Source: a virus. Taken from it: DNA of 44,790 nt. The notes below the pieces were generated by a model. That model searched no databases. It saw only the letters and a program-made list of their open reading frames with translations, and was not told where the DNA came from. A program made the position numbers and the translations under genes. Shown here one piece after another: positions 2,735 to 42,287 of the stretch (positions within the stretch are counted from its first letter, which is position 1; every line of letters begins with the position of its first letter). The stretch is from positions 1 through 44,790 of the IMG/VR virus record IMGVR_UViG_3300047440_000261; one strand, written 5' to 3'.

Positions 2735-3132
2735 TTACTTCTAGTATTCTGATTATCAATTAAACTCTTTGCACTGTGGCAGTTAGAACATATACACTGA
2801 AGATTGTCTATCTCACAAAATAACCCTTCCACAAAGTTAGGAAGATCTTGTGCATTATTCAGTGCTCCAACAGGCTTAATATGATCCACAGATATTTCTG
2901 TACTCTTAAACCACTTCTTACATACATTACATTGGTATTCCCATTTTTGTCTGACACTAGTACCAACATAAGGGCGCTTAGCTCTTTCTCTAGCTAAACT
3001 AATTGGTTTCCACACAATACTTCTTCTCCTCAAGGAATTACGAATAAAAGTCCAAAATGATGCCTCAGTGAATGTACCAGCATTTCTGTTCTTAATTACT
3101 TTACTCGCTCTTTTATATGCCTTCTTCTTCAT
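2731..3132 (-). CDS. HNH endonuclease
   Basis: A 133-residue HNH nuclease, probably a free-standing homing enzyme. The C-terminal half shows CNVCKKWF, then the catalytic VDHIKPVG, then NLQCICSNCHSAKS: the two Cys pairs that hold the ββα-metal fold and the His/Asn residues. The basic N-terminal half (RNSLRRRSIVWKP) is probably the DNA-contact region. I start at MKKKAYK rather than at the upstream MLLLICL, which lies near the terminator hairpin. It sits between the rIIB terminator and a zinc-ribbon peptide. A packaging-type HNH is possible but no terminase lies nearby. Confidence 0.87.
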   Translation of the reverse strand: MKKKAYKRASKVIKNRNAGTFTEASFWTFIRNSLRRRSIVWKPISLARERAKRPYVGTSVRQKWEYQCNVCKKWFKSTEISVDHIKPVGALNNAQDLPNFVEGLFCEIDNLQCICSNCHSAKSLIDNQNTRSK

Positions 3133-3148
3133 AATTAAACAGATTAAT

Positions 3149-3184
3149 AAGAGCATTAAAGTTACGAAAAACTCTAATGCTCTT
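3149..3184 (-). terminator. Probable terminator after rIIB
   Basis: A perfect 10-bp stem (AAGAGCATTA paired with TAATGCTCTT) follows the rIIB stop at 3194. The U-tract after the stem is weak and broken, so it may pause or process rather than fully terminate. Confidence 0.6.
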
Positions 3185-3193
3185 GATTAAAAA

Positions 3194-4567
3194 CTAGTCT
3201 ATAACACTAACTCTTTTAGTTATTTTGTCTTTCATTTCTCCTAGAGAGAGAACTATACTGTTGATCTCAGCACTAGATATGCTTGGTATATTGAACTCAT
3301 ACTTAGAAGCTTCCACTACAAAACCTTCCTTAGCTTTAGTGGCTAAATCTTCAAGTTCCTTGATAGCATACTCTTCATCTATTTGAAGAAAATCAAAAGA
3401 TCTAGAGTTCATAATTGCATTAGCTTCTTTGACATTAGTTGTCATGAATGGCAAATACTCCCAACATCTTCCTTTCTCACTTCCAATACCTACAACTTTC
3501 ATAGGATTATGTAAAGTGAACACAGTTGTATCACCACACAATACATATGGTGCTGTGTGACCAGCAAAATGTAACCCAGCAGTAGCACAATCCTGAGTAC
3601 TCCAGTTACATTTCTCACTAGGCATACTTACCACTTGACCAATTCTAATGTCAAAGCTATGTGTCCAGTTATCAGTGTATCTGTTCTCATCAAGAGTAGG
3701 CATATCTAGGTAAAGTTGTTTAAGATTACCTATTAAATGATATTTACTAATACAGGATGTTACATTTAATACATGATATTTATCATCATCATCCTTAACA
3801 AGATTAAAATCAGCTGGATTTTTCTTCCACACAGCTTTTACTTTGTTATAGCCATTACTAATAGCATCTATCAAAGTAGTATCTGTTTTATCTTTTTTAA
3901 CAACCACTACATTTCTAAGAGCTACAAAGAAACCTTGTTTGGTAATTTTCATACCATTTTTCTCTAAGAATCCATATAAACTTGCAGCTACTTCAGCTCT
4001 AGGATTTAAACAACACCACATGAAGAAGTTCTTCAACCCTTGGTATTCATCATCTTCCTTTAGGTTATATTCAAGTTCTTGAAAGTCAGTATACTTATGT
4101 GCACCTACAACTTGAGCAAATTTGTTTATTAACAAAGGAGGTATAGACCTTTTTGTTCCTGTTAAATACAAAGTACTTCCATCAGAAGTAAAATCCACCA
4201 ATTGTTCAAGTAACTTGAACCCATCAGCCATCTCTGTTAACTTAACAGCTTCTTTTCTATCCTCTTTTACTTGTGTTGCAACTACTACATCCTCAATAAC
4301 AGAAAGAATTTCTTCTGCAGACTTAGCATTTTGAACTGTCAAGTAATCCTTTTCAGTTGCATTAGGCTTAGTATATACTATACCATCATTTAAGACTACT
4401 GTTAAAGTTTCATTAACCAGCTTTAAGATCATATAGGGTCTTCCTTCTCTAGGAGTTGGTACTAACTCTGTTAATGAATCTATTCTTTCTTCTACTGCTT
4501 TATCAATAGCTTGACCTACTCTCTCCTTGAACCTCTCCAAGGAGAGAAATTCTTCTTTGTTTTCCAT
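3194..4567 (-). CDS. rIIB: rIIB-like protein
   Basis: 457 residues. The C-terminal third carries a typical rIIB block: IGQVVSMPSEKCNW, then GLHFAGH, then VVGIGSEKGRCWEYLPF, as in T4 rIIB (a His-containing Hedgehog/intein-like fold). In T4, rIIA and rIIB are membrane-associated partners that govern rapid lysis and counter RexAB exclusion; their chemistry is unknown. Here rIIB follows rIIA after four bases, the same gene order as in T4, which strengthens the call. The N-terminal 200 residues are helical and divergent. A terminator-like hairpin follows. The family call is firm; the function in this phage is inferred. Confidence 0.85.
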   Translation of the reverse strand: MENKEEFLSLERFKERVGQAIDKAVEERIDSLTELVPTPREGRPYMILKLVNETLTVVLNDGIVYTKPNATEKDYLTVQNAKSAEEILSVIEDVVVATQVKEDRKEAVKLTEMADGFKLLEQLVDFTSDGSTLYLTGTKRSIPPLLINKFAQVVGAHKYTDFQELEYNLKEDDEYQGLKNFFMWCCLNPRAEVAASLYGFLEKNGMKITKQGFFVALRNVVVVKKDKTDTTLIDAISNGYNKVKAVWKKNPADFNLVKDDDDKYHVLNVTSCISKYHLIGNLKQLYLDMPTLDENRYTDNWTHSFDIRIGQVVSMPSEKCNWSTQDCATAGLHFAGHTAPYVLCGDTTVFTLHNPMKVVGIGSEKGRCWEYLPFMTTNVKEANAIMNSRSFDFLQIDEEYAIKELEDLATKAKEGFVVEASKYEFNIPSISSAEINSIVLSLGEMKDKITKRVSVID

Positions 4568-7785: not shown

Positions 7786-8520
7786 TTAAAATGGTGGATC
7801 CACTAAAAGCCACATAATGGTCTCTTCGTTACTCTCCCAAATGTTTTTATTGATTTTTGTAAATACTCCTTCAGTTTCCCATGGTCTTCCTGTATATGCT
7901 GAGGAAGCTGGATGAGACAGAGTATAAGTTGGATTGGTTCCTGCTAGAAGCAGTTCAAATCTAGAGGCTTCTTTACCTACAAAGAGTACTGGTACTCCTG
8001 TAGTGGAGATAACTTCCTGTAGGAGAAACTTAGTGAAAGGTTCCCAAATGTCCATATGACTATTAGGTTTATCCTTTTCCACAGTTAAAGCTGCATTGAG
8101 TAGTAATACTCCTTGTGCACTCAAATAACTTAAATCATAATCTTGAACATAATTTAAGTTTAGACCATCAAATAGCTCTTTCTCTAAACCAGAATAGAAA
8201 TTCTGTAAACTAGGTTGTACTCTTGCTGTTATTGAACAATCGAGAGCAACTCCAGAGGCTATTGGACTTCCATTTACAAACTTGAAGTAAGGATCCTGAC
8301 ATACAATAACACACTTTAGCTCCTCAAAAGGAGTTTCTACAAAAGCACGATAGGTATGCATGGATGCTGGACAAATTTGTTTTCCAGCTTGAGATTGTGC
8401 CCTTAGAAATGAATAAACAGGATCAAACCCTCCACTAGCCCAAAAAGGACGTATTTTCTTCCACCATGTTCCAAATCTTGGAGCGAGAGAATCTTCTTTT
8501 AGTTTTGTTTGTACTTCCAT
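7786..8520 (-). CDS. ung: Uracil-DNA glycosylase, family 1
   Basis: Cuts uracil from DNA by hydrolysing the N-glycosidic bond. The 244-residue length suits the family. Motifs in order: the water-activating loop CQDPYF (about residues 74-79; the catalytic Asp and the stacking Tyr are kept, the final His of the usual GQDPYH is Phe), LLLNAALTVE (about 139-148), and the minor-groove loop HPASSA (about 203-208; His kept). UNG is an established member of the crAss-like replication set. The first 22 bases are shared with the end of the GIY-YIG gene upstream. It could act in repair or in processing uracil-containing DNA. Confidence 0.93.
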   Translation of the reverse strand: MEVQTKLKEDSLAPRFGTWWKKIRPFWASGGFDPVYSFLRAQSQAGKQICPASMHTYRAFVETPFEELKCVIVCQDPYFKFVNGSPIASGVALDCSITARVQPSLQNFYSGLEKELFDGLNLNYVQDYDLSYLSAQGVLLLNAALTVEKDKPNSHMDIWEPFTKFLLQEVISTTGVPVLFVGKEASRFELLLAGTNPTYTLSHPASSAYTGRPWETEGVFTKINKNIWESNEETIMWLLVDPPF

Positions 8521-9191
8521 ATAAATCCTCCTGCTGTTTTTCTAATTATACCTTTCTTACTGTTGCTTATACCAGCGTATTGTCTACATACCATAGATAT
8601 TTCACTAGCTATACATCCTAGGGCTTTACTTGCTTCAGAAGCAGAAGTCCATTCTCTTATGAAATTATTATTTTTATCATATTGAGTAATTGGTATCCTT
8701 TTATCTCCTGTAGTTGTTTTACCTTTTCTTTCTAAACTCATTTTAAGTTTTAGCTCTTCTGACATTATTCTTCCTGTTGATGAAACTCTACATTTTTCTT
8801 TAGTTTCCTCAGAGTGTTTTTTACCTAGATTTGCCCTCCTTAATTTATCTTTAGTTTCAGCAGATCTTGCTACTCTAAAATTTATTGGAGAAGTGTTATC
8901 AATATTAAAGCCAAACTCTCTATTTAAACTATTCAAAATAGTAACCCAATAATGTTCTTCTGAACATAGTAATGACTCGTCACATAGAATTAATTCCTCA
9001 AAAGAGAACTTATCTATACCATATTTATTTACGGAAGATTGTAAGTAAATATTTGGATGCTTATTTGTTAATAATTTTTGTTTATGTTTGGTCAATCTTT
9101 GTTTAATATTAATAGATTGACCAACATAAACTTTATTATTAACTAAGCAAGTAATGGTATAAATTCCTGACTTAGGCTGTGTCTTTGACAT
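8499..9191 (-). CDS. Free-standing GIY-YIG homing endonuclease with NUMOD motifs
   Basis: 230 residues. N-terminal GIY-YIG nuclease: SGIYTITCLVNNKVYVGQS (GIY and YVG, residues about 8-27), then RLTKHK with the catalytic-type Arg, and E in LCSEEHYW. The middle has two NUMOD3-like segments (KLRRANLGKKHSEET; KMSLERKGK) and the C-terminus a NUMOD1-like helix-turn-helix (EWTSASEASKALGCIASEIS), all usual DNA-binding modules of phage homing enzymes. Its start lies inside the previous gene's end and its last codons overlap the start of ung, so the element fits between two genes without breaking either. Confidence 0.93.
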   Translation of the reverse strand: MSKTQPKSGIYTITCLVNNKVYVGQSINIKQRLTKHKQKLLTNKHPNIYLQSSVNKYGIDKFSFEELILCDESLLCSEEHYWVTILNSLNREFGFNIDNTSPINFRVARSAETKDKLRRANLGKKHSEETKEKCRVSSTGRIMSEELKLKMSLERKGKTTTGDKRIPITQYDKNNNFIREWTSASEASKALGCIASEISMVCRQYAGISNSKKGIIRKTAGGFIWKYKQN

Positions 9192-9354: not shown

Positions 9355-9589
9355 TATAAATACTGTTTTCGTTATATCCAATCATCCAATGTACATGATG
9401 TGCTTCATTCTCTTCAGGCCCAGTAAAAGGATTAGCATTAAATCCTAATGTATCTGCAAGGTAGAGAGACTTTCGTTCTAGTATATCATAGTCATAATCA
9501 GAAATTTCTGGTGTGTTCTGTACATAGTACAGAAATTTGTGCCTTAATAGCTCTTTCTGTAATTCTATAAATTTTTTAGTTTCTTTCAT
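9344..9589 (-). CDS. Stand-alone domain Ia of NAD-dependent DNA ligase
   Basis: 81 residues. The segment LRHKFLYYVQNTPEISDYDYDILER matches domain Ia of LigA, the part that binds the NMN half of NAD (consensus around YYV, PEISDxxYD). The adenylation, OB, HhH and BRCT domains and the KxDG active site are absent from this gene and I do not find them elsewhere in the window. It could be one subunit of a split ligase whose catalytic part is elsewhere in the genome, or a reused fold. The gene overlaps the HNH gene upstream by 14 bases and the coiled-coil gene downstream by 11. Confidence 0.72.
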   Translation of the reverse strand: MKETKKFIELQKELLRHKFLYYVQNTPEISDYDYDILERKSLYLADTLGFNANPFTGPEENEAHHVHWMIGYNENSIYNEG

Positions 9590-10310
9590 AATAATCCTTT
9601 TTATTAATATTTCCTATATAAGTAATACCATTTATTGTTTGTGTAACAGCAAATAAAGGTTGAAGATTAGTATAATGAAAACATTTTTCCTGTTCTTCTT
9701 TTTTACTTAAATTAAAGCTAGAACAAGGAATTATATGATCAATATGCCAATATCTGCCATAGTTTTCCCAAGTCATAGTTGGAAGAAATTTTGATTGTAA
9801 ATAATCCTTAAGAAAAGGAATTGAACATCCTAATATATGAATAGTTTTATTAGCCTTAGCATTATTATTAAGAGCATATTTCATTCTGCTTCTTAGGTTT
9901 CTTGTTAGTCTAAAATTTATATCAGTCCTACATTTTTCTTTTTGATATTCTTGATTATGAGTAGGATTATTTAATCTAAACTGTTTAGATGCTTCTCTCC
10001 TTTTTTCAGGATCTTTCCAATACTGTGTCTTATTATAATTTGGATTATCAATATAGTACTTATCCCTATATTGTTTGTGATAATCTGGATTTTTATCTAT
10101 CCATTTTTGTTTGGTTACTTTTCTCTTTTCTTTATTTTCTTGTTGCCATATTTTAGCTTTTTGAATTAAACTTTCTTTATTTTTTTGAGAGTATTCCTTA
10201 TAGTAATCTTTATGACAAAGTTTACATATAGAAGAGGTAAGACCTGATTTTCTAGTATAAAAATCATCTTTAGACTTGGTTAATTTACATTTTGTACATT
10301 GCTTTTCCAT
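9576..10310 (-). CDS. Free-standing HNH homing endonuclease with Cys-rich N-terminus
   Basis: 244 residues from MEKQCTKCKL. The N-terminus has CTKC and CKLC pairs (a zinc finger), a long Lys/Asn-rich middle of repeated 'KNP-Y-K-YR' type follows (DNA binding), and the C-terminus has the HNH core WHIDHIIPCSSFNL with FHYTNLQPL, a usual phage HNH ending. The start at 10310 sits just downstream of a TATATTTG box, so the transcript could have an almost leaderless start. Its last codons overlap the start of the ligase-Ia gene. It lies directly after primase. Confidence 0.9.
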   Translation of the reverse strand: MEKQCTKCKLTKSKDDFYTRKSGLTSSICKLCHKDYYKEYSQKNKESLIQKAKIWQQENKEKRKVTKQKWIDKNPDYHKQYRDKYYIDNPNYNKTQYWKDPEKRREASKQFRLNNPTHNQEYQKEKCRTDINFRLTRNLRSRMKYALNNNAKANKTIHILGCSIPFLKDYLQSKFLPTMTWENYGRYWHIDHIIPCSSFNLSKKEEQEKCFHYTNLQPLFAVTQTINGITYIGNINKKDYYERN

Positions 10311-10325
10311 GATATAAATTTTAAA

Positions 10326-10333
10326 CAAATATA
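10326..10333 (-). promoter_or_regulatory. -7 box (TATATTTG) before HNH gene
   Basis: Exact match to the Bacteroidota sigma-A -7 consensus TAnnTTTG, 15 bases before the HNH start. No clear TTTG is seen at the -33 position, so it may be weak. Similar TATnTTTR boxes stand before several other homing endonuclease genes here. Confidence 0.5.
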
Positions 10334-20811: not shown

Positions 20812-22827
20812 TTATTTTGCTTGTCCCCAAGATTCTCCAATATTTGCTTGGGCATTGAGTTTAAACTCATCTAAGTAAAAGTTTCCTCCTTCTTTCATTG
20901 AAACTTCTACCTGTAATCTAGTTTCTTCAGCTAATTCTTTAGGACACTCAATAACCAATTCATCATGTACAGAATTACAGATCAGAACTTTCCACTGATA
21001 ATTGTTTTCAATTATCCAATCAAAAAGAATACAAGTAGATAGTTTAATCATGTGGCTTCCAACGCTTTGTATTGGATTATTTAAAGCCAAACGTTGATAT
21101 TCAGACTTTAATTTAAAAAAGGATTGAATATCTTTCTTTTTAGAATTATAAAAGTTTACGCTTTCAGGAAACTGATAAGTATATTCTCTTCCTTGTTCAT
21201 ATTCCTCAAACTTCTTTTTAAAGTCAATTTTACCAATTTTGTATTTTGTCCATTCTTCTCTAGTAATAGCTTCTACTTTTGTTTTTGTTTCTAAAAACTC
21301 ATCATATCTGGGTAACTTTAATTTCCAGCCTCCAGCAGACTCAATATATCCCTTTTTAACAGACTCTTGATAGATTCTTTCTCCCCATTCATACACTCCC
21401 TTGTGTAGATTTTTAAAGGCATCTTCTATTGTAATTGCCTCTTTTAAAGGAAATCCTTCATTCATGTGTAACGTAAACGCATTGCCCCCATAAGAGAATA
21501 AAAACCTAACTACTTTACATATATCTCTTTTTGGTTTATGTTTTTCTTTTATTTCATTGTCAGATAGATCTGCAAGTTCAGGAAAAACAGCTTTAGTCAG
21601 TAAACAGTGCAAATCTTGCCCTTCTAGCACTGATTTTTTCATGGCCTCATCTTTGGATCTATCTGTTAAGATAATTCCTTCTTGGGCTTCATAATCACAA
21701 ACTACCATTACATTGCCTTGGTTGGCCTTGAAGCAATATCTTGTAGTTTTATCTGCAGGAAAGTTTAAGAAGTTAATACTACCTCTCCTAGAGGAGAGTC
21801 TAGCTGTATCTACCATTGGATTGAAGTTGGTATATAACCTTTCATTCTCAATCTGCTGATAGATCTTATCACCAAAGGTTGTTACCCTGTGATTAGCCAC
21901 TTGATAGTTAATCCACATTTCAACAAACTCATGTTTAGACTTACTAATGACATTTTCATTAATACTATCTTTATCATCCTTGTCCTTTGTAGGTATACCA
22001 AAATCATTAAATACCTTAAGCATTTGGTGTGGAGAATTAACTGAAACAGTTATTTTCTTCAGACCATCCTCAAATAAATTAAGTTGATTATTGGCATATC
22101 TAGGGAGATGATCAAAGATATAAGCCTCAATTGTTTGCTTCCATTTAAAGGAGTTAACAACATCCTCTTCCATTTTAGCTGCCCATTTCTCACTTGAGAT
22201 AGGAAGGCCACACTGCTCCATGTAGGCTAATGCCCTGACATACCTGTAATGAAGTCTATAGGTATCGAGACTACCCCGCTCATCAAGTTTACTATAGAGT
22301 ACACTATGTAAATCAAGCAACCTATCCACATCATTAAAAGAATAAGTAATAGTGCTGCTTTGACTAAGCTTGACCAAGTGAATGTTTTTCTGTTCATATT
22401 TATCTAGTTTTATGCCCATTTCCCTTTCCATCAAACTACCAAGATCATGTCGCTTAGTTGGGTCACCATTGTACAAAATCCTAGAGGCTATCATAGTATC
22501 CCTAACTTCTTTAGGCCAGAAGTCGTGTTTATAGAAAAAACCTAGATCAAAAGTTATATTTTGACCAACTAAAATTTTACCATCTAAATAAGGAATTACA
22601 TCTTGAAATGTATAGTGATCATCACTTGTATAAAAATCAATAATATAGTTATTTACACCTGAACCAACCTGTAAACAAAACATATCATGATGTCTGGAGT
22701 CTAAACCTGTTGTCTCAGAATCTATACTTATAATTTCTGGTAAAAGTATTTCTTCAAGACTACAATAGTTATAATCACCTACTTTTTCAAAATATTCTCT
22801 GTTTTTAGTAATTATATAATCCGCCAT
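20812..22827 (-). CDS. polA: Family A DNA polymerase with 3'-5' exonuclease
   Basis: The phage replicative polymerase, 671 residues. Proofreading domain first: Exo I DSETTGLD (about residues 36-43), Exo II GQNITFDLGFF, Exo III YSFNDVD. Polymerase domain: motif A VCDYEAQEGII, motif B R-x3-K-x3-F-x3-YG in KRDICKVVRFLFSYGG (the Phe at the O-helix site discriminates against ddNTPs in related enzymes), motif C SVHDELVIE. There is no 5'-3' exonuclease domain, as in T7 and other phage enzymes. It is flanked by two homing endonuclease genes but is itself unbroken. It starts two bases after the stop of the AP2-type endonuclease. Confidence 0.95.
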   Translation of the reverse strand: MADYIITKNREYFEKVGDYNYCSLEEILLPEIISIDSETTGLDSRHHDMFCLQVGSGVNNYIIDFYTSDDHYTFQDVIPYLDGKILVGQNITFDLGFFYKHDFWPKEVRDTMIASRILYNGDPTKRHDLGSLMEREMGIKLDKYEQKNIHLVKLSQSSTITYSFNDVDRLLDLHSVLYSKLDERGSLDTYRLHYRYVRALAYMEQCGLPISSEKWAAKMEEDVVNSFKWKQTIEAYIFDHLPRYANNQLNLFEDGLKKITVSVNSPHQMLKVFNDFGIPTKDKDDKDSINENVISKSKHEFVEMWINYQVANHRVTTFGDKIYQQIENERLYTNFNPMVDTARLSSRRGSINFLNFPADKTTRYCFKANQGNVMVVCDYEAQEGIILTDRSKDEAMKKSVLEGQDLHCLLTKAVFPELADLSDNEIKEKHKPKRDICKVVRFLFSYGGNAFTLHMNEGFPLKEAITIEDAFKNLHKGVYEWGERIYQESVKKGYIESAGGWKLKLPRYDEFLETKTKVEAITREEWTKYKIGKIDFKKKFEEYEQGREYTYQFPESVNFYNSKKKDIQSFFKLKSEYQRLALNNPIQSVGSHMIKLSTCILFDWIIENNYQWKVLICNSVHDELVIECPKELAEETRLQVEVSMKEGGNFYLDEFKLNAQANIGESWGQAK

Positions 22828-25715: not shown

Positions 25716-28039
25716 CTAGTTGTTATAAACATCTTGAACAACTTCTCTAACATCTTCAAAATAACCTGCATCATGCAACACAGCTTTAAGAGATTTAACT
25801 AAAGCTTGTTCATTAGAAACATAGTTGTCTTTAGTTTGAGCTAAAGAAACTTGAGTTAAATAAGAATCAATACAAGTGTCAAATTCTGAAGCATGAAGAG
25901 TATTATCTCCTCTGATAACCATTGTTGATTTAACATTTTCAATGATTTCAGCCATGAAAGCTGGAGCAATGTTACTTACACCAATTTTTTCATAGATAGG
26001 ATTCATATCACCTTTAAGATTGATACCAGTACAGAAAGCTGTAACATATTGTTCAGCTGTAAAGGCATCCAAATACCCCATAGAGATGATAGTACCAATT
26101 CTTTTTCCTCTTAGGAAAGTTGGATCGATAGAAGTAAGGTGATTTGTTGTGAACAAAGCAATTACATTCATATCTTTAGTGTCACCACCATCCAATGTGT
26201 TCAAGATGTCCTGTAGGGCAGCATCTCTTTCACCTGAAGTTACCTGGTCAATATCTTCAGTAAATACAATGATACCAGAACCATTGTTATCCAAGGTTTT
26301 AGCCATACGAAGAGTATCAGCCAATAACTCTGGAGATTTTAGGTAAATAGAAGCAAAGTTGTTCTCATTACCCATTTTTGCTAATTTGAAAGCTAATAAA
26401 GTCTTTCCAGTTCCATAAGGGCCCTCTAGGATGGCACCATACTTAATTGGAACTTTCGCAGCTCTACATCTTTCAGCAAATTTCAATCTGGCATACAATG
26501 GAGACAATGCTTTTTCTGTTTTCTCAGAAAGAATCATGATCTCTTTATCAATATTTGACATATCAATAAGCTGAGGCTGACCCATTTCAACATCAGAATT
26601 GATCTCAAATGTTTGATTTTTGTAAATACTGTCTGTATTCAACAAGAATTTAGTTTTCTCAATGATTCTGTCGATCAAACTGTTGAATTTGAATTGACAT
26701 TTACCTCTGATATACAATTTTCTCTCATTGAAATCATATTGAATACGAATTTGAGCACCTTCTCCCATATCAGGTAATTCTATGTCCTTTATATTCCTAT
26801 AGGTACGTTAATCCTATAGCGTTCTCAGAGATCGCATCTCATGAACTGCTTAATGTCACCATTAAGAATTGACTATATCTCACTCTTATTTCTAAGAGAA
26901 TTTCCATTTCGAGTCCACTTGGCTCTACTCCTATTTCAAGGATAGTCGATGAAGGTTCTCCATTTTAAAGGAGCTTCCCTGCTGATTTTCTTATAATGTA
27001 ATATTTTCAAACATTCACGCTTACCTTTTCAAGTTACGTTGTAGTTATTACACCTTCAAGACGTTCCAGCAATTAAGAAATTATGCCTTACTTAATCACT
27101 TAAATAAGGGGCTTTTTTATTCTTAAAAATATTTGGCATTTTGTCTAGTTTTAGTAAAGAGAATTGGTTTTTTCTAGTAGATTTTTTTCTACCAGAAAGA
27201 ACCCTAGAAATAGTATGAGGATTTAAACTTAAAAATTTAGCTGTATCTTTTACAGAAGGAAACTCTTCTATAAACTCCCCTTCAAGAGAATACATATAAA
27301 CTTTTTTAGATTTAAGATTTTGAGCAGATTTTTTTCCTTTACCTACAAATTTACCTAAGTCTAAACAGTTTAATAATTTATGTTTATCTCTATACTTTTC
27401 TATTAATTCATTCTCTAGTTTTTCAGCTTCATATCTAGAAGTACATACATGTATTCTTCTAATACAAATTTCTGACTCTTCTGCTAACATTTTTCTAATC
27501 CACTTACATTTATGAGGGTTACTCCTCATGTATAAAGCATCATTTAAATGTCCTTTCAAACGAAGTCCTAAACTAGTTTCTGTTATTCCAATATATCTTA
27601 TTTTTAAAGAGACACTGTCATACAAAACATAAACACTAACTTTTTTCATTTTATTACTTTTTAAAGTAAAGATACAAAAAAGTTCTAAATATTTTAATAA
27701 TTAAGAATTTTACAAACCATAAGGTACTTTTTTACGAATACCTCCTGCCAATATAACATCAACAGTGTTCATAGGGCGCTCTCCACCTGAAGGTCCCATA
27801 TTCTTACCAACAGTTGTTACTCCAATGATGTCTTCAATCGCTCTGTTCAATTGATAAACTCCATCACTCATAAAGCAAGGTAGTCTATAATCGAAGTTGG
27901 TCATTCGACTAGCATTGGCAATTTCATTTTCCAGGTAAGCTAACACCTCTGGATAAGGTTTTAAACTGTTTCCCAATTTTACTAGTTCCGCTTTTTTCTC
28001 TAATTCCCAGCTTGCTTGCACATTTTTGATAGTTTCCAT
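25716..28039 (-). CDS. CDC48-like AAA+ ATPase, gene split by a group I intron (join 28039-27719, 26786-25716)
   Basis: Exon 1 encodes 107 residues and ends VDVILAGGIRKKVPY; exon 2 resumes DIELPDMGEGAQIRIQYD and runs to the stop, giving a 463-residue protein. The ATPase core is in exon 2: Walker A GPYGTGKT (about 229-236 of the joined protein), Walker B IIVFTEDID, sensor 1 FTTNHLTSIDP, and the Arg-rich LRGKRIG. This is the AAA+ pattern of CDC48/FtsH-like unfoldases and remodellers and is a known member of the crAss-like set. Read without splicing, exon 1 would end after two extra codons and exon 2 would start at the ATG at 26768, losing the N-terminal domain. Exon 1 overlaps the upstream gene by 40 bases. 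The substrate is unknown. Confidence 0.85.
27092..27649 (-). CDS. Intron-encoded GIY-YIG homing endonuclease
   Basis: 185 residues. VYVLYDSVSLKIRYIGIT (GIY-YIG form VYVLY/YIG, residues about 5-22), RLKGHLNDAL with the catalytic-type Arg, and E in AEKLENELIEKY. The C-terminus SLEGEFIEEFPSVKDTAKFL and the following helix is a NUMOD1-like DNA-binding unit. The ORF is wholly within the intron, and its stop codon abuts the intron's internal guide. It lies behind a TTTTTTGTATCTTTA promoter-like block. The enzyme should cut an intronless copy of the AAA+ gene near the insertion site. Confidence 0.92.
   Translation of the reverse strand: MKKVSVYVLYDSVSLKIRYIGITETSLGLRLKGHLNDALYMRSNPHKCKWIRKMLAEESEICIRRIHVCTSRYEAEKLENELIEKYRDKHKLLNCLDLGKFVGKGKKSAQNLKSKKVYMYSLEGEFIEEFPSVKDTAKFLSLNPHTISRVLSGRKKSTRKNQFSLLKLDKMPNIFKNKKAPYLSD
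27667..27680 (-). promoter_or_regulatory. TTTTTTG+TATCTTTA box before intron ORF
   Basis: The block lies 18 bases before the ATG of the GIY-YIG ORF, inside the intron. The TATCTTTA part is one base from the -7 consensus. The same core precedes the endonuclease at 39405-40235. Confidence 0.45.
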
Positions 28040-29411: not shown

Positions 29412-30119
29412 TTATTCTTTAAATCTCCACCTAAAACCTTTTGATGTAGCTCCTTTGTAATATAAATTACAAGCTTTCCAAATAGCCTTATAAGTGACTC
29501 CATAATGATCTGCAGCTTCTCTAGTTACATGCCATTCTTTAATGAAGTTACCATCAAGATCTTCTTGAATGACTCTTTTACAAAGTTTATCTACCCGTTG
29601 AGCCTTAAGTGTTTTTTGTTGTTCTAAACTTAGGGTTCTACCTTTAGCATAAGTATTACCTTTCATTCTAATTGAGGTATTCTGACATCGTTGTTTGATA
29701 CTCTCTAAATCAGTTTCAGAGGGATTTTTAAATCTCTCTTTTTGACCTTTAGACATTTTATCTAGTTCCTCTTTAGAATAAACTTTCCCTAGTAAACCAT
29801 CTCCTCCATCTGTAAGATTACAGAGAGTTCCTTTCTTTTGGTCTCTTCTTCCAAACTTGTTAATGAAATAAATTTCTTGTTGTTTGATATATCCATAATC
29901 AGTAGATTCTACGAGAATCTCAACTGTATAACCATATTTAGCAACAATTTTTTTCCAAAAGTTAGTTCTTCCTCCTAGGGAATAGGCTCTTCCATATTTA
30001 ACTTTAGGACTTTGATGATCACCGTACTGTTTAGTACCAATACCTATGTAAAAAGGTATACCCCCACTTGTTCTGTGGAGGTATACATAATGTGGACTAT
30101 ATTTTTCCTTGTTTTCCAT
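29412..30119 (-). CDS. Free-standing GIY-YIG homing endonuclease
   Basis: 235 residues. The nuclease core YVYLHRTSGGIPFYIGIG is a GIY-YIG variant (YVYL and YIG, residues about 12-29), with RTNFWKKIV carrying Arg and E in KQQEIYFINKFG. The C-terminal third carries NUMOD-like segments (GLLGKVYSKEELDKMSKGQK) and a helix-turn-helix (EWHVTREAADHYGVTYKAI), used for DNA recognition. A TATGTTTA box lies 11 bases before the start. An 11-bp hairpin occupies codons 11-21. The gene ends 12 bases before the next start. Confidence 0.9.
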   Translation of the reverse strand: MENKEKYSPHYVYLHRTSGGIPFYIGIGTKQYGDHQSPKVKYGRAYSLGGRTNFWKKIVAKYGYTVEILVESTDYGYIKQQEIYFINKFGRRDQKKGTLCNLTDGGDGLLGKVYSKEELDKMSKGQKERFKNPSETDLESIKQRCQNTSIRMKGNTYAKGRTLSLEQQKTLKAQRVDKLCKRVIQEDLDGNFIKEWHVTREAADHYGVTYKAIWKACNLYYKGATSKGFRWRFKE

Positions 30120-35159: not shown

Positions 35160-36191
35160 TTAGTTAGCACAGTCATTCGCACCACCATTTCCAGGATTTT
35201 CATCTTGGTTAGCGTTATAGAATGAGTTTGGCCCTCTGTGCCATCCACATCTGTTGAAACCTTGACGATTGTAACCTTCTCTATCTCTACCATTACAGTC
35301 ATATCCTTCTACATCTAAAGGACATGGAGCTTCTTCGATTGTTGGAAAAGTAATTGTAATACCTCCATTTTCAATGTTTTCATGAACATCAAGGTTAGTT
35401 ACAGTATACTCACAAGAAATTGATTTAGCTTTTTGAACAGTAATAGATTTAGTAATAGTTTTCAACACAGGTTTGTTAATACCAGCTTCAGAGATTAGAA
35501 TCTCAAAGTTAACAACTGCACCATCAACAGCATCTTCATTACTCCACTCAAATGCAATATGTCTTCCTGAAGTTGTAGGTGTAACAACAGCAACTGGAGA
35601 TGACCAAGCACCTGAATTGATTTGATATCTAACAGAAATTGTATAGTTATCAGCTTCTGGAGCGGCAACTCCAAATAATGCTAATACTCTACCATTGTTA
35701 GTTCCCATAATCAAAGGAATTGGTGCATTAGTACCTGCAATAATAGTTCTAAGTGGGTTATTCGTAGATGCAGTAACAATATATGGTACATGCGCTTTTT
35801 GAATAACTAAATCAGTAGCAGAAGTACGTACTAATGAAAGTCTTTTGTTAGCTGCAGCACTTGTACTAGTAGCAGAGAACGTATTGTCTCCTAAAGCTAC
35901 ATTGTCCAAAGTTAATGCAGGTGCAAGAGCATTAAGTACACCTGTAAAATCAAATGTTTCTGAAGCTACAAATGGTAATGGAATGGCAGTACTAATAGCC
36001 TTAATAGTCAAGTTTTCCACATAATATGGAATGTTGCCTCGATCAATTGTTCTGGCTGTTGAAGGCGCTTGAGCAACGTTAAAGGCTACTGCTGTTTTTT
36101 GTACTGCTGAAGCATCAGCAGCATTGTTGTCATCTTTCGTGCATGAGAATGTGAGGACTACAATAGCCAAAAGTCCTAATAATCTTTTCAT
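35160..36191 (-). CDS. Lipoprotein with beta-sandwich body and Gly-Asp pentad tail
   Basis: 343 residues. Signal MKRLLGLLAIVVLTFSC with a lipobox, so it should be lipidated at the Cys (residue 17) and held in the host envelope. The body is Thr/Ser/Ala-rich with Ig-like strand pattern (NYTISVRYQINSGAWSSPVA; VVNFEILISEAGIN). Near residues 296-320 are five Gly-led pentads (GYDCN, GRDRE, GYNRQ, GFNRC, GWHRG), then a Gly/Asn-rich end. The body resembles virion or surface adhesion domains. It has its own promoter (36289) and terminator. Its place next to three secreted proteins suggests a host-surface role, such as receptor masking. Confidence 0.75.
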   Translation of the reverse strand: MKRLLGLLAIVVLTFSCTKDDNNAADASAVQKTAVAFNVAQAPSTARTIDRGNIPYYVENLTIKAISTAIPLPFVASETFDFTGVLNALAPALTLDNVALGDNTFSATSTSAAANKRLSLVRTSATDLVIQKAHVPYIVTASTNNPLRTIIAGTNAPIPLIMGTNNGRVLALFGVAAPEADNYTISVRYQINSGAWSSPVAVVTPTTSGRHIAFEWSNEDAVDGAVVNFEILISEAGINKPVLKTITKSITVQKAKSISCEYTVTNLDVHENIENGGITITFPTIEEAPCPLDVEGYDCNGRDREGYNRQGFNRCGWHRGPNSFYNANQDENPGNGGANDCAN

Positions 36192-36288
36192 AATAATTGA
36201 TTTTTTGTTTGTCTGAGTACTCTAAGTCCAGTTTTCCTCGTACCTGGTTCCTCTCCCTGTGGAGACCCCTATCAGATTTTCAAGACCG

Positions 36289-36296
36289 CAAAGGTA
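36289..36296 (-). promoter_or_regulatory. -7 box (TACCTTTG) of the lipoprotein gene
   Basis: Exact TAnnTTTG at 36296-36289. It would start transcription near 36282 and give a 90-base leader with hairpins, such as TCTCC/GGAGA (about 36266-36253) and CCAG/CTGG. There is no good TTTG at -33. The leader is unusually structured for this genome. Confidence 0.55.
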
Positions 36297-36299
36297 TGA

Positions 36300-36974
36300 A
36301 AATTTAGCTCATATCGTAAAATTATGTTAATTTTTTAGCGCCCTCAAATGTAGGGCCAAGCTGAGAACTCATTTGTGTTGAATAGGTTCCGTGCCCTATC
36401 ACGATCCATACGGTATCATTCCTTTCTCAAGTGGAACAACACATCCAACATTACTGCTGGTATCTTTATGTAATTTCACCATCCCTACACATTTTCTTCA
36501 GACTATTGTTCAATCTGCTTCAGCGGTGACCAGCAAGGAATTACAAAGGGTCAATGTTTAGCCTGTCGAGAGTTTTTCATTGCCACTCACAAGTGTTCCC
36601 TGTTCCTCAGAGACCAATCCAAGTCTAGTTTATAGTCATATCTTGCGAGGACTAACTGCCCAGCCATTTCTAAGTGGCCTACTTTTTGTTTGCAAGCAGT
36701 GACACAGATTGATTTATTCCTATATCTGACTAGTAGCTTACAAGAGTTTACACTATCTTAGCATAGCTAGGGGTTGATAGGACTCAGTCCTGGGGTACCA
36801 CCCGTGTTTAATACCTTCTCTCATTCAGTGAGCAGTTTAAAAGTGAGCAGGGTCCTATCTGTAAAGTGCTAAATTTTACAGAAGAGATGTAAGCGTTTAA
36901 TCCAAATTCATGGCAGATAGCACCTACTGACTACGCTAATCAGACCCCTCTTGTCAGGCTTACTCACTTTTTTC
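36300..36974 (-). ncRNA. Gene-free, GC-richer region, candidate large structured RNA
   Basis: About 675 bases with no frame longer than 60 codons on either strand, clearly richer in G and C than the flanks. On the minus strand I can fold AGGAC/GTCCT (36790-36778), TCTGTAAA/TTTACAGA (36881-36857), GCCA/TGGC (36678-36663), ATAGG/CCTAT (36399-36382) and GCCCT/AGGGC (36356-36340). Longer-range complements are AAAAGTGAG (36970-36962) with CTCACTTTT (36846-36838), and TGCTGGT with ACCAGCA (36534 and 36462). The orientation is inferred from its neighbours. Candidates are a large ornate RNA of the GOLLD/ROOL kind, known from phages, or a class not yet described. Confidence 0.65.
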
Positions 36975-37214
36975 TTAAATATCTCCTAGTTCACATTCTT
37001 TAGGTCTAATATATCCTGTAGCCTTTAGAAACTCACGTATTCCCTCAACAATCTCCATATCATTGGCAGCTAATCTACCATGAATAAAGACATCACCATT
37101 AGGCATGAATTTGAGCATTTCTTTACCTTGAGCTCCATTCATCTGTAATATACTTGATGGGATATGTCCACTAACAGATAAAGATTTTCCTGGATATGAT
37201 TCTGCCTCTTCCAT
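36975..37214 (-). CDS. Conserved-type small phage protein
   Basis: 79 residues, starts MEEAESYPGKSLSVSGH. The segment FMPNGDVFIHGRLAANDMEIVEGIREFL matches small phage proteins with a 'F-P-GDI-V-GK---ND-E-V-G-R-FL' core, function unknown. Its stop lies at the edge of the structured region, and its start overlaps the basic protein gene in a TAATG junction. Confidence 0.78.
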   Translation of the reverse strand: MEEAESYPGKSLSVSGHIPSSILQMNGAQGKEMLKFMPNGDVFIHGRLAANDMEIVEGIREFLKATGYIRPKECELGDI

Positions 37215-37393
37215 TACGATGGATCATTAAGGTGTAACTGAGACACAAACTGACTGTTTCTGACAGCTTTGTGTTTTCTTACTTTTTTACTAAACCTACC
37301 ACCAGAGACATTTCTCACATCTAAATCTGGTTTCAATCCTCTTCCACCTACTGTGAAATACACTTTGCGCTTACCTTTTGCATCATTTGCCAT
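37214..37393 (-). CDS. Small basic protein, possible RNA/DNA binder
   Basis: 59 residues: MANDAKGKRKVYFTVGG at the start and GGRFSKKVRKHKAVRNSQ in the middle. Net charge is strongly positive. No other frame of this stretch is open. It overlaps both neighbours by 1-11 bases. A nucleic-acid-binding role is suggested by composition only. Confidence 0.7.
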   Translation of the reverse strand: MANDAKGKRKVYFTVGGRGLKPDLDVRNVSGGRFSKKVRKHKAVRNSQFVSQLHLNDPS

Positions 37394-37787
37394 ATTCTAA
37401 AGTTGTTAAAGTTAATGATTCTATTAATGATTCCAACCTCTCATAGGTTGTAACATGCCAAGCTATTGGTTGATGTAATTCTTCACATACAATTGTATGC
37501 TCATCAGCTCTTTTCTGGTCTTCTTCAGTCCATTCCTCTTTTTCCCAAAGATCTGGTGGTATAGAAGATATTGTTTCTTCTGGTGAATAAATGGAAACTA
37601 TACCACTATTTGGATTACTATCTGGATAGTGAGGATTAAGTACTACTCTAATATCGAAATGATACTGACCATATTTAGTTACAGGTTTTGTAAGGCTATA
37701 AATAGGACTTCCTACAATATCTGTTTCTTCTAATTCTACAAACCCATGAGTCAGTAAAATTTCTGGAGTTAATCTAGTTTTTATCAT
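37383..37787 (-). CDS. Unknown protein, crAss-like type
   Basis: 134 residues, starts MIKTRLTPEILLTHGF. The parts LNPHYPDSNPNSGIVSIYSP and IAWHVTTYERLESLIESLTL resemble small crAss-like early proteins that carry the 'LTPEIL---GF' start. Function unknown. It overlaps the next and the previous genes. Confidence 0.7.
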   Translation of the reverse strand: MIKTRLTPEILLTHGFVELEETDIVGSPIYSLTKPVTKYGQYHFDIRVVLNPHYPDSNPNSGIVSIYSPEETISSIPPDLWEKEEWTEEDQKRADEHTIVCEELHQPIAWHVTTYERLESLIESLTLTTLEYGK

Positions 37788-38232
37788 TTTCTATTTCTTC
37801 AAATTCAATATCCTCAATAGTTGGCTTATAGCCATAATGGTCAGCTATCTTTTTCAAGATATAGTCCTTATTGTCCAGGAGGCTCTCATCAAATGATAGC
37901 TCCATGTGATCAAAGAATTGATCATCTATCACCCAAATCCATGTCTTAATACATAGGAATCCTTTGATAATACTAACAGTATCTTCAGTTCCTACAATCT
38001 TATGCATTTCAGGAAAGAACTTCATTAACTGTTCCTTAGGGTCTATATCTTCAATCCATAACTCATCTTCAGGAAGAGAACCTTTCTCAGCTTCTTCTAC
38101 ATAACCTGGATCCAAGAATGGTTTAGCCATTTTAAATGGTAATAGGGTCATTAATACTGTTCTTTGTGCATTAAAAAAGTCTCTTGATGCTGGAGAGAGA
38201 TATCTTTCTAAAATCTGTTCGGGTGTTTTCAT
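37774..38232 (-). CDS. Unknown acidic protein
   Basis: 152 residues starting MKTPEQILERYLSPASRDF. Helical, with an acidic middle (ELWIEDIDPKEQLMKFF) and tail (IEDIEFEEIENDKN). No recognised motif. The start is in an ATGA overlap with the membrane peptide upstream and the end overlaps the next gene by 14 bases. Confidence 0.72.
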   Translation of the reverse strand: MKTPEQILERYLSPASRDFFNAQRTVLMTLLPFKMAKPFLDPGYVEEAEKGSLPEDELWIEDIDPKEQLMKFFPEMHKIVGTEDTVSIIKGFLCIKTWIWVIDDQFFDHMELSFDESLLDNKDYILKKIADHYGYKPTIEDIEFEEIENDKN

Positions 38233-39404: not shown

Positions 39405-40235
39405 TTATATAAAGCATTCATGTTTACCACAAAAATTATGTTTAGTGGTATATAGTGCTCCTCTTAGTTTAATAATTGATTTAAATTTCTTTTCTAAAGC
39501 AAAACAATATCTAACAGTACTAGTAATAAGTCTAATCACTGTTATTTTATATTGATGATTTGTTTGTCTATTAAGAGATTCTAATCTTTTTGGTAAATTT
39601 ACTGTAACTCCAAACTTTTTAAATATCTCAAATTCATTTTCAAACTTTAAAATATAAAAAGAAGAATATTTTTCTTGATTATTTATATTCTTATACCAGT
39701 ATCCTTGTAAATTTTCTCTACCACACTTTATACAACCCATTCCCTTTAGATGGGTAAAAGGATCTTGCTTAAACTCTCCATGTTTTTTACATATTATAGA
39801 GAGTTTTGTTAAGCCATTTTTAAAGATTGTATTAGTATAATCATAAGTGTCTTGATGTATCTCTTTTGCTTTATTTATAAAGTATTGAGATTTATTAACA
39901 GCAGTCTCAATACAAGGAATTTGTCTTAAGACATGTCCTGGAAGAACCTCACAAACTCCATACTTATCTTTTATTAACACTTTTGTTCGTGCATTTTTAT
40001 AATCACTTATTAAAGTTAAGTTAGTATTAACTTCTTTTAATTGATTACTAAAATAAGAGTTCTTATCAAGAGCAGTAGCTATAGTAGGTTTATTACCTAC
40101 TAATAAAGGATAAACTTGAACTTTACAGATACCATAATTATCTTCAACATCTAAGAATCTACCATTAATATTAAGAATCTTTAAATATGGATGTAAACTC
40201 CTAATTTTTTCTAATTTTTCATTTGTTACTATCAT
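39405..40235 (-). CDS. Homing endonuclease with DUF723-like zinc finger and T5orf172/GIY-YIG end
   Basis: 276 residues. Middle part KAKEIHQDTYDYTNTIF, then IICKKHGEFKQDPFTHLKG and GCIKCGRE, the 'C--HGEF-Q-P--H--G-GC-KC' zinc region seen in phage VSR- or GIY-YIG-like homing enzymes. The C-terminus SSFYILKFENEFEIFKKFGVT and LPKRLESLN is like the T5orf172/GIY-YIG nuclease, with YIL, FGV and an Arg, and a Glu in FALEKKF. The N-terminal 100 residues carry 'K-L---YG-C-V-P---L' repeats for DNA contact. It has its own TATCTTTA box and ends 22 bases before the next gene. Confidence 0.72.
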   Translation of the reverse strand: MIVTNEKLEKIRSLHPYLKILNINGRFLDVEDNYGICKVQVYPLLVGNKPTIATALDKNSYFSNQLKEVNTNLTLISDYKNARTKVLIKDKYGVCEVLPGHVLRQIPCIETAVNKSQYFINKAKEIHQDTYDYTNTIFKNGLTKLSIICKKHGEFKQDPFTHLKGMGCIKCGRENLQGYWYKNINNQEKYSSFYILKFENEFEIFKKFGVTVNLPKRLESLNRQTNHQYKITVIRLITSTVRYCFALEKKFKSIIKLRGALYTTKHNFCGKHECFI

Positions 40236-40289: not shown

Positions 40290-42287
40290 TTAAAAGTTAA
40301 TTTTTAATACTCTTTTGAAAGTACCATCTACTCGACAGATGATAGCATTTCTCTGAGTGGTAGAGAAGCCAACACCTGTAAGCTGTTTGTCACTAGGCTC
40401 TACTTTTAGTTTAGATCCTAGTACCTCAAACACCTTTCTATTTTTGGTGAGTTCATCCTTAAGGAATTCATTGAAGAATCCTCTAGGAGACTCATCATTT
40501 TTGGCACCTTCAATAACAAAGAATACATGTTTGTTACCAACCTGCCCTTCCCAATGATTAGGACTGTTCATAATCATAGATACCTTCTGGAATTTGTTGG
40601 TATTAATACCCCATTTCTGAACAGATTTAACTGTTGAACTGGCACCACCATCAAATACAAGACCATGCGCCTTAGTGTATGTGAAACCACAGATGAGAGT
40701 TTTACCAGACATCTTTTGAGGTTGTTCAAAAGTAAATACTTCACCTTTGTGCTCAATCTCCACAACACAACCAATATCTTGAACTTCTCTCATGGCATAT
40801 TGATTCACATAAACTTCATAGTGACCTTCGAGCATTTTCTTCTCATCAGTCCAAGTAATATTCTCAACACCACTTCTAGTTTGACCAGTACCAGCATTCA
40901 TATCAACATCAAGCTGACCTGAAGTGGATGATATGGCTGGTTTTCTACAGTTTTGGAAGAATATCTCATTACCATTAGGTTCTTTGACATGTAAATCCAA
41001 ATCATCATAGTTATACCATGATAGTGATACCCTAACAATACCATTTACATTACCACCTGCAGCTTTAACTCTTTCTTTAATCAAAGAGTCTGTTAATGCA
41101 TTCACATACGACCATGAGAATGGGTTGTTCCATTTAAATAGACTAGGTGCAGCAGGCTCTTTAGGAGCTATAACTGAAACTAGATTTGCTAAGTGGCTGT
41201 TTTCAACAAGCACTTCTACGCCAATAGATGTTGGAAGAATATCATTGATAAATTTATCAATAGTTACTTCTTCCACTTTACTAAAAGATTTAGCTGACAC
41301 AACTACATCTTCTTTCATTTCCTCAAATACATTCGCAGCCACTTTAGCATCTCTATTCACAAACAACACATTATTCACACTTATGTCTTCTGCTACTGCA
41401 AATCTTCTTCCTAGAGATTCTGCTATACCTAGAACAGCAATCTCTTTCTCAGCTTGTTCAATCATTCCTTTTGTAACTATAGCAGAAGGTCTCTTATAAT
41501 TTGTTGGAGCCATAACTTTCTCCCATGCTGTTACAGCAGCATCTAAATCCATACCTTCAGATAGATTGACAAGCAATGTACCAATAGCTGTATTACGAAT
41601 AGCTATTGTAGCAGGATGAGATACTTCACCTGAAATTCTCCAAGTATAGTTATCTCTTTCAGAGGTATCTAGAGTATTATATGTTTTTCGACAGGCTAAG
41701 AAGAATCTAACATTTTTCTCAAACTCACTTCCTCTATATAATGATCCTTGACCTATTAAATCAAGAACAATTTCAGCAGCCTCAATAGTTATCTCATCAA
41801 GAGATCGTTTAAATACAGCTCTGGCCTGTCTAAAATCAGACATAATAGTATCTTTTTTATCTTTCTTAACCTTAATACTAGCAGGTGCCTCAATATAGAA
41901 ATGCTCCCATGTAACCTGATTATCAATATCAAAATTAGAATTTGTTCCCAACTTGGTAAAATCATTAACAAAGATATCTCTGATGTTTGACATACCTACA
42001 ATAACTTGTAACATTTCTACTGATGTTTTATATTCAGGATCTTCAGATACAAAGTCCCATACAGTACTCAATTTGTTGTCAACAATGACAACAATATTAC
42101 CATAATGTCTAATAAATTGCTTACAACAATTACAATTATGTCCCTGTCGTTCTTCATCAGAGAACCCTTCAAGATAAGAATCCCACATGAGTTCCTTACT
42201 TGCATCTGTAATAAATAATTTTCCACCAGTTGCTACCATAAAGTCGAACTGATCTAACACTTGTTTTTTAATCTGTTTGAATGACAT
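40290..42287 (-). CDS. Large protein with C-terminal YfaP/DUF2135-like domain
   Basis: 665 residues. The N-terminal 400 are helical with a Cys/His cluster (GHNCNCCKQFIRH, about residues 49-61) that could bind a metal. From about residue 415 comes GIVRVSLSWYNYDDLDLHVK, EPNGNEIFFQN, GQLDVDMNAGTG, ENITW: the 'LSW---DLDLHV--P-G--I' core of YfaP/DUF2135-type beta-sandwich domains. There is no signal peptide, so it is cytoplasmic. Proteins of this kind occur in large phages, sometimes near vWA or AAA+ genes; the function is unknown. The largest gene in this part, and likely abundant early. Confidence 0.78.
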   Translation of the reverse strand: MSFKQIKKQVLDQFDFMVATGGKLFITDASKELMWDSYLEGFSDEERQGHNCNCCKQFIRHYGNIVVIVDNKLSTVWDFVSEDPEYKTSVEMLQVIVGMSNIRDIFVNDFTKLGTNSNFDIDNQVTWEHFYIEAPASIKVKKDKKDTIMSDFRQARAVFKRSLDEITIEAAEIVLDLIGQGSLYRGSEFEKNVRFFLACRKTYNTLDTSERDNYTWRISGEVSHPATIAIRNTAIGTLLVNLSEGMDLDAAVTAWEKVMAPTNYKRPSAIVTKGMIEQAEKEIAVLGIAESLGRRFAVAEDISVNNVLFVNRDAKVAANVFEEMKEDVVVSAKSFSKVEEVTIDKFINDILPTSIGVEVLVENSHLANLVSVIAPKEPAAPSLFKWNNPFSWSYVNALTDSLIKERVKAAGGNVNGIVRVSLSWYNYDDLDLHVKEPNGNEIFFQNCRKPAISSTSGQLDVDMNAGTGQTRSGVENITWTDEKKMLEGHYEVYVNQYAMREVQDIGCVVEIEHKGEVFTFEQPQKMSGKTLICGFTYTKAHGLVFDGGASSTVKSVQKWGINTNKFQKVSMIMNSPNHWEGQVGNKHVFFVIEGAKNDESPRGFFNEFLKDELTKNRKVFEVLGSKLKVEPSDKQLTGVGFSTTQRNAIICRVDGTFKRVLKINF

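Follow-up and report, generated by a model that had tools for sequence, protein, structure and literature searches.

The question raised by this locus is whether the largest gap in the window (the whole stretch of DNA analysed, a virus record of 44.8 kb with nearly all genes on the minus strand) encodes a structured RNA, and what such an RNA might do. The first-pass annotation had described the stretch as gene-free, GC-richer and hairpin-dense. The first two attributes hold. The ORF list and codon scoring in six frames gave no credible gene in the 783 nt between positions 36192 and 36974, where nearly all 120-nt stretches, in the six frames, scored below the first percentile of the phage's own genes. 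The GC content of about 0.40 is the maximum of the window, against 0.25-0.38 elsewhere. A simple gene caller likewise placed its largest gap here, although that gap also took in two small genes at 36975-37393.

The density of hairpins did not survive examination. The minimum free energy of the gap is at chance level (z = -0.93 for the minus strand and -0.66 for the plus strand), 120-nt pieces of it fold no more stably than pieces from elsewhere in the window, and it contains two perfect inverted repeats of at least 9 nt against 1.0 +/- 1.5 after shuffling, a count as high being obtained in 77 of 300 shuffles. Since this count is at chance, the nine-base complement AAAAGTGAG/CTCACTTTT, which had been offered as a sign of structure, proves nothing alone. 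The case for a structured RNA is made by its homologues and not by the density of hairpins.

The neighbouring genes and the relatives of the gap

The lipoprotein gene that follows the gap has no Pfam or PHROG match, and the C-terminus of its product has a repeat-like GYNRQGFNRCGWHRG stretch. As the first-pass annotation had noticed, its promoter lies at the 3' edge of the RNA region; the reading of 36296-36289 as a promoter is based on the -7 box consensus TAnnTTTG, which we take to be of the Bacteroidota type. In the window no such box was found immediately 5' of the RNA, and the type A copies described below have one upstream in 28 of 99 cases, a modest enrichment over a background of 17%. 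A structured leader had been proposed, and the position of the RNA, upstream of the lipoprotein gene on the same strand, would suit a riboswitch-like leader of the lipoprotein mRNA. This is now very improbable because the gene has its own box between itself and the RNA. Moreover, no homologue of the RNA is tied to a lipoprotein gene: in the relative G017 a terminator-like hairpin at the end of the M domain (described below) precedes another gene, and in G018 and G019 a tmRNA comes after the core. No tRNA gene was found in the window. Homing-endonuclease-like genes are scattered through it (8499-9191, 9576-10328, 27092-27649, 29412-30119 and 39405-40235), the last with a PHROG match and the remaining four called by reading the sequence.

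A search of IMG/VR with the DNA polymerase (20812-22827) gave relatives at 61-67% identity, and a DNA search of their whole records revealed two separate homologous blocks in the gap. The first (query 134-321) matches G017 at the syntenic position with E = 1e-18, and the second (query 503-625) matches G018 and G019 with E of about 5e-11 and includes the 18-base core motif CACAAATGAGTTCTCAGC. This motif was present in 115 IMG/VR contigs, 95 of them distinct, by exact-motif searches, which favour copies close to the consensus. Of about 85,000 GTDB genomes a single one had it, on a contig of a Sphingobacteriales MAG. Among annotated phages the core was found on the plus strand of Cellulophaga phage phi14:2 (Crassvirales; KC821624) at 3108-3209. 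Judging by this phage, the one MAG and the promoter type, the carrier contigs look like phages of Bacteroidota. A single match was obtained in 36 of the 40 positive records, mostly picked for holding the motif, while two others have a second, marginal match and two carry two clear copies.

Other routes to relatives were less productive. Comparing the entire gap at the DNA level with phage and plasmid records gave nothing above chance, no relatives were found via the flanking small protein or the lipoprotein, and those reached via the 40290-42287 protein had RNA matches at chance only. A phage search in which the query included a tRNA returned tRNA matches only, and a query with the compact type B form gave no convincing relative among annotated phages. 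A match in G022 (75% over 45 nt) lies within an ORF and was rejected as chance. In phi14:2 three tiny antisense CDS, gp007-gp009, are annotated in the RNA region (L173:3106-3431; KC821624), two of them under the match. These are probably not real genes, and in the RefSeq copy two features beneath the core match are marked as removed.

Fold and covariation of the core RNA

The comparison of copies shows the conserved core (E1) to be a three-way junction in which the loop of the first hairpin, H5, pairs with a downstream strand, with further hairpins on either side. Across the copies it consists, from the 5' end, of H1 with the loop TAAACATTGA, a variable arm, ACATAAAGATA, H3 (CTATC-AGTAAT-GGTAG), the P1 strand TGTGTTG, H5 with the loop CTTGAGAAA, the variable arm H6, the returning P1 strand CAACACA, AAATGAGTTCTCAGC and the arm H7, and it ends with ACCCTACTCTTA, an arm and TAAGAAAGAGGGTGCTAA. 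The copy in the window has no H7 but contains the junction with the loop-tail pseudoknot, as indicated by the conserved pairs and by its match to model R1 (87 bits, E = 9e-19), although this copy is itself one of the 51 sequences of the model. The features of the locus are collected in Table 1.

Table 1. Features of the RNA locus and of its flanks; all positions refer to the window
Feature	Position	Strand	Basis or remark
Lipoprotein gene, 3' of the RNA	35160..36191	-	ORF list; signal peptide, lipobox-like LTFSC
Bacteroidota-type -7 box TACCTTTG	36289..36296	-	Promoter of lipoprotein gene, 3' of the RNA
Core RNA E1, type A, H1 to closing H8	36335..36564	-	Conserved blocks; about 230 nt; motif CACAAATGAGTTCTCAGC
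H8, 3' hairpin GCCCTACATTTGAGGGC	36340..36356	-	Short form of the relatives' arm ACCCTACTCTTA..TAAGAAAGAGGGTGCTAA
Pseudoknot 3' strand TTCTCA	36362..36367	-	Covariation alignment and compensatory variants
P1 3' strand CAACACA	36374..36380	-	Covariation alignment
H6, variable arm of the junction	36381..36418	-	Hairpin ATAGG/CCTAT 36399-36382; varies, exchanged between phages
H5 TTCC-ACTTGAGAAA-GGAA	36419..36436	-	Loop makes pseudoknot; 4/4 pairs changed on both sides
Pseudoknot 5' strand TGAGAA, H5 loop	36424..36429	-	Pairs with TTCTCA; compensatory variants L183, L242
P1 5' strand TGTGTTG	36437..36443	-	Pairs with 36374-36380, closes three-way junction; 99.7% paired, nearly invariant
H3 CCAGC-AGTAAT-GTTGG	36445..36460	-	Loop conserved; stem covaries; 98.8% paired, 51 sequences
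H1, conserved loop TAAACATTGA	36541..36564	-	Own versus swapped arms 0/2000
E2 upstream domain, directly 5' of H1	36568..36617	-	Block common to seven other copies
M domain	36654..36838	-	Closed by AAACTGC/GCAGTT; contains GGGTGGTACCCC
5' part, closed by AAAAGTGAG/CTCACTTTT	36839..36973	-	Sequence only; match at chance level
Small gene directly upstream	36975..37214	-	Stop codon abuts RNA region; PHROG 16927 match

Collecting homologues and checking them for covariation, as the first-pass annotation had suggested, gave a strong signal. In an alignment of 51 distinct sequences, the window copy among them, 97.1% of the cells are paired against 86.1% after shuffling, and 98 cells are changed on both sides against 21.5. 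The covariation score is 0.308 compared with 0.100 for shuffled alignments and at most 0.066 after sliding. Changes on both sides occur at 5/5 pairs of the H3 stem and at 4/4 pairs of the H5 stem, and in H1, H3, H7 and H8 pairing with the own arm beats pairing with arms swapped between copies (0/2000 permutations). In this alignment P1 and the pseudoknot tail hardly vary, which partly reflects the exact motif used to select the sequences. A further search in which the pseudoknot strands were unconstrained recovered compensatory pairs (TTGGAA/TTCCAA in L183 and TTAGAA/TTCTAG in L242) as well as some single mismatches. In L179 and L193 the pseudoknot tail is replaced by a hairpin (CAAGTATCCGTGAGGACTTG and GAGTATCCGTAAGGACTC, respectively); these are natural variants that lack the usual pairing of the loop.

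From these comparisons we conclude, with a probability of about 0.96, that the gap encodes a conserved structured RNA on the strand of the genes (minus), which upholds the earlier proposal of a structured non-coding RNA. A decayed gene or plain spacer DNA would account for the folding energy at chance level. Next to no credence is left for it given the covarying structure over 51 distinct sequences and a codon score that is negative in almost all frames. For the core this explanation is refuted, and it still applies as a candidate to 36839-36973, where no relatives were found. The "large ornate RNA" of the first reading is structured, but a single molecule of 675 nt as such is not supported; the region is made up of a core of about 230 nt, the upstream domains E2 and M, and a 5' domain without relatives.

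Upstream domains and exchange of arms

The E2 block recurs in L060, L069, L075, L082, L117, L160 and L201/L250, and its motif lies mostly 22-28 nt from AACATTGA. E2 adjoins E1 in the window, the two sharing about 280 nt of continuous homology with L201 and L075. The M domain shares 69% identity over 203 nt with G017 at the same genome position, where it adjoins homologues of the window genes at 37214-37393 and 37774-38232. Its closing stem reads AACTGC/GCAGTT here and AACTGT/ACAGTT in G017. A wider search left G017 as the sole relative of M, and the four new matches were coding sequences matched by chance. The M domain (36838-36654) also contains GGGTGGTACC, which resembles a T-box antiterminator motif and has no T-box model match, and the complements CTAAG/CTTAG, a possible second pseudoknot with G017 as the one relative.

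Two more blocks were observed upstream of the core. Eight core copies (L060, L079, L080, L082, L093, L117, L131 and L137) have E3 (TAGCTAAGCTGTGTAAAGC..GAAGCTA) at a distance of exactly 41 nt upstream of AACATTGA, and E4, a non-coding block extending from GTGTTATGTTTGTTGAGTATGAT to CCAATCTTGATGGATGTGT, is found in some phages (L068, L069, L080, L093, L127 and others).

Among 75 copies, 11 pairs agree in H6 and differ in the arm that follows H1, eight pairs agree in the latter and differ in H6, and none agrees in both. Since the two never coincide, the arms seem to move separately, and on the basis of the sequences the variable arms appear to be exchanged between phages. Such swapping between otherwise different copies is an unusual mode of evolution for an RNA gene, and it points to possible diversifying selection on the arms. 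The RNA might also be a decoy, its variable arms mimicking host RNA targets (e.g. anticodon stem-loops) and absorbing defence nucleases or toxins. Hypervariable arms that are swapped between phages would suit such a decoy, as would the tRNA-like arrays nearby and the T-arm-like hairpins in a few arms. We consider it improbable, given that hairpins resembling anticodon stem-loops number 14 in the arms against 10.1 +/- 2.6 after shuffling, which is no clear enrichment.

Known RNA families, genomic setting and possible function

The class is absent from Rfam 15. Scans of the window, also with permissive settings, and of its relatives gave no family matching the RNA; this covers GOLLD, ROOL, group I/II introns, HEARO, OLE, RNase P and T-box models, and the first-pass annotation, which could not match the RNA to GOLLD or ROOL and thought that it might be a new class, is right in that it matches neither. 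No match to RF02032 or RF03087 was obtained in the window even with permissive filters and E up to 10. RF03087 (ROOL) matched 0 of 45 records, the positive-control genomes being silent as well, and RF02032 (GOLLD) matched 4 of 38 with 262-326 bits, always away from E1. A true GOLLD is found as a separate gene in four phages with E1 (L192:1293-1710; G038, G051, G052 and G056). No description of the core RNA was found in the open-access literature that the search covered, and an earlier description in subscription journals is possible.

GOLLD and ROOL are cage-forming phage RNAs encoded near tRNA islands, with function unknown, and GOLLD has a conserved 3' region and a variable 5' region (PMC12286853). 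Like GOLLD, E1 is a single large structured RNA encoded by phages, at some loci near tRNA or tmRNA genes, with a conserved 3' and a variable 5' part, but its conserved blocks are others and the core of most copies measures only some 200-500 nt, less than GOLLD. With ROOL, an RNA of phages and prophages near tRNA islands, it has in common kissing loops and a variable linker; it is nevertheless smaller and has no match to the ROOL model. Despite the same niche and layout (PMC12286853), membership of GOLLD or ROOL, or a divergent relationship to them, is hardly credible in view of the missing match in the window and of GOLLD standing at other loci, so that one phage has both.

The search with free pseudoknot strands also revealed a compact form of about 100 nt, type B, with the same junction. 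Here the loop of a short hairpin (GAGG-ACTTCTCAT-CCTC) holds the TTCTCA strand; the two sides of the hairpin stem change together, and the loop pairing is a kissing loop. Type B stands about 10 nt 5' of tRNA or tRNA-like genes: a T-arm follows within 400 nt in 86% of cases against a background of 6%, and a tRNA-like D-arm motif follows the element by about 10 nt in 18/29. With ARAGORN, a tRNA or tmRNA was detected within 2.5 kb of 32/106 type A and 14/29 type B loci, all on the same strand as the core. Ten type A copies lie 6-150 nt before tmRNA or tRNA genes. A tmRNA is downstream in 13/106 type A loci, sometimes less than 50 nt away. The tmRNA (RF00023) is likewise a pseudoknotted stable RNA, on the same strand as the core in these loci, but it is a separate gene directly 3' of it (e.g. 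L056, L068 and L080). A few compact variants have a terminator-like hairpin and a T run after the junction.

Because the core occurs in such varied settings, alone, before tRNA-like, tRNA or tmRNA genes, or before an intrinsic terminator, a self-contained RNA can be argued for. By analogy with GOLLD and ROOL, the core RNA may well act in trans as a free RNA, which we hold to be slightly the better bet. It would be co-transcribed with the genes upstream or have a separate start, be released as a stable molecule, and then act as a structured RNA in the niche of GOLLD and ROOL, with the loop pairing either locking the fold or joining copies and the swappable arms serving as variable contact surfaces. 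As no promoter box lies directly 5' of it, the RNA of the window may be a processed piece of a longer mRNA, and processing from the upstream operon is possible. A particle or scaffold role for the core is conceivable but rather unlikely. More tentatively than the action in trans, and with the odds somewhat against it, we propose a new category of phage RNA in which a knotted three-way-junction core is joined to recombining, cassette-like arms and 5' domains (E2, E3, E4, M), giving each phage its own combination of RNA surfaces for the assembly of RNA particles or for evading or titrating RNA-targeting defences of the host. RNAs of the GOLLD and ROOL type are abundant and structurally startling and have no known function. 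Since the present class, a further and independent one, is compact, widespread and carried by a sequenced phage whose host is named (Cellulophaga phage phi14:2), the question of function can be addressed by deletion and probing.

The proximity to tRNA genes might instead be explained by a cis-acting element for processing or protection in the stable-RNA operons of phages, located in the leaders of tRNA, tRNA-like and tmRNA genes or in 3' UTRs, with the knotted junction setting the RNA ends and possibly being a self-cleaving ribozyme. The T-arms and D-arm motifs behind type B, the ten type A copies close to tmRNA or tRNA genes and the compact variants directly before a terminator all speak for such an element, and the compact form, close to tRNA-like genes, is as compatible with a cis-acting leader as with a free RNA. 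Theta ribozymes fold as a nested double pseudoknot, whereas E1 has a three-way junction. These HDV-like ribozymes are associated with phage tRNAs, a similar niche, and like E1 they are compact and structured with a pseudoknot (PMC10879173), but they cleave at tRNA 3' ends while the spacing of E1 is fixed to the 5' end of the next gene. In addition, 74 of the 106 type A copies, including that of the window, have no detected tRNA or tmRNA within 2.5 kb, the bases flanking the fold include no conserved one that would mark a cleavage site, and no ribozyme family of Rfam matches, the scan for HDV-like ribozymes having covered the HDV-family models. The cis-acting explanation, which suits type B better than type A, is on the whole unlikely, and a free RNA acting in trans is preferred.

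Two very long intron-option calls of ARAGORN span the element and would suggest tRNA genes interrupted by it; they were judged to be artefacts. Tandem tRNA-like arrays were observed in L174, L176, L192, L230, L231, L233 and L243. Their units have an acceptor stem GTCAGG..CCTGAC, a D-arm TGGCGGAATGGTAGACGC and a T-arm ACAGGTTCGAATCCTGT, with unrelated hairpins of 40-120 nt in place of the anticodon arm, and most are missed by ARAGORN. One hairpin block (TCACAGATGAGTGTT..AGATGAGTTTGAATCTCAG) is found within a tRNA-like unit of L230 and again in one of the core RNA's arms in L068/L087.
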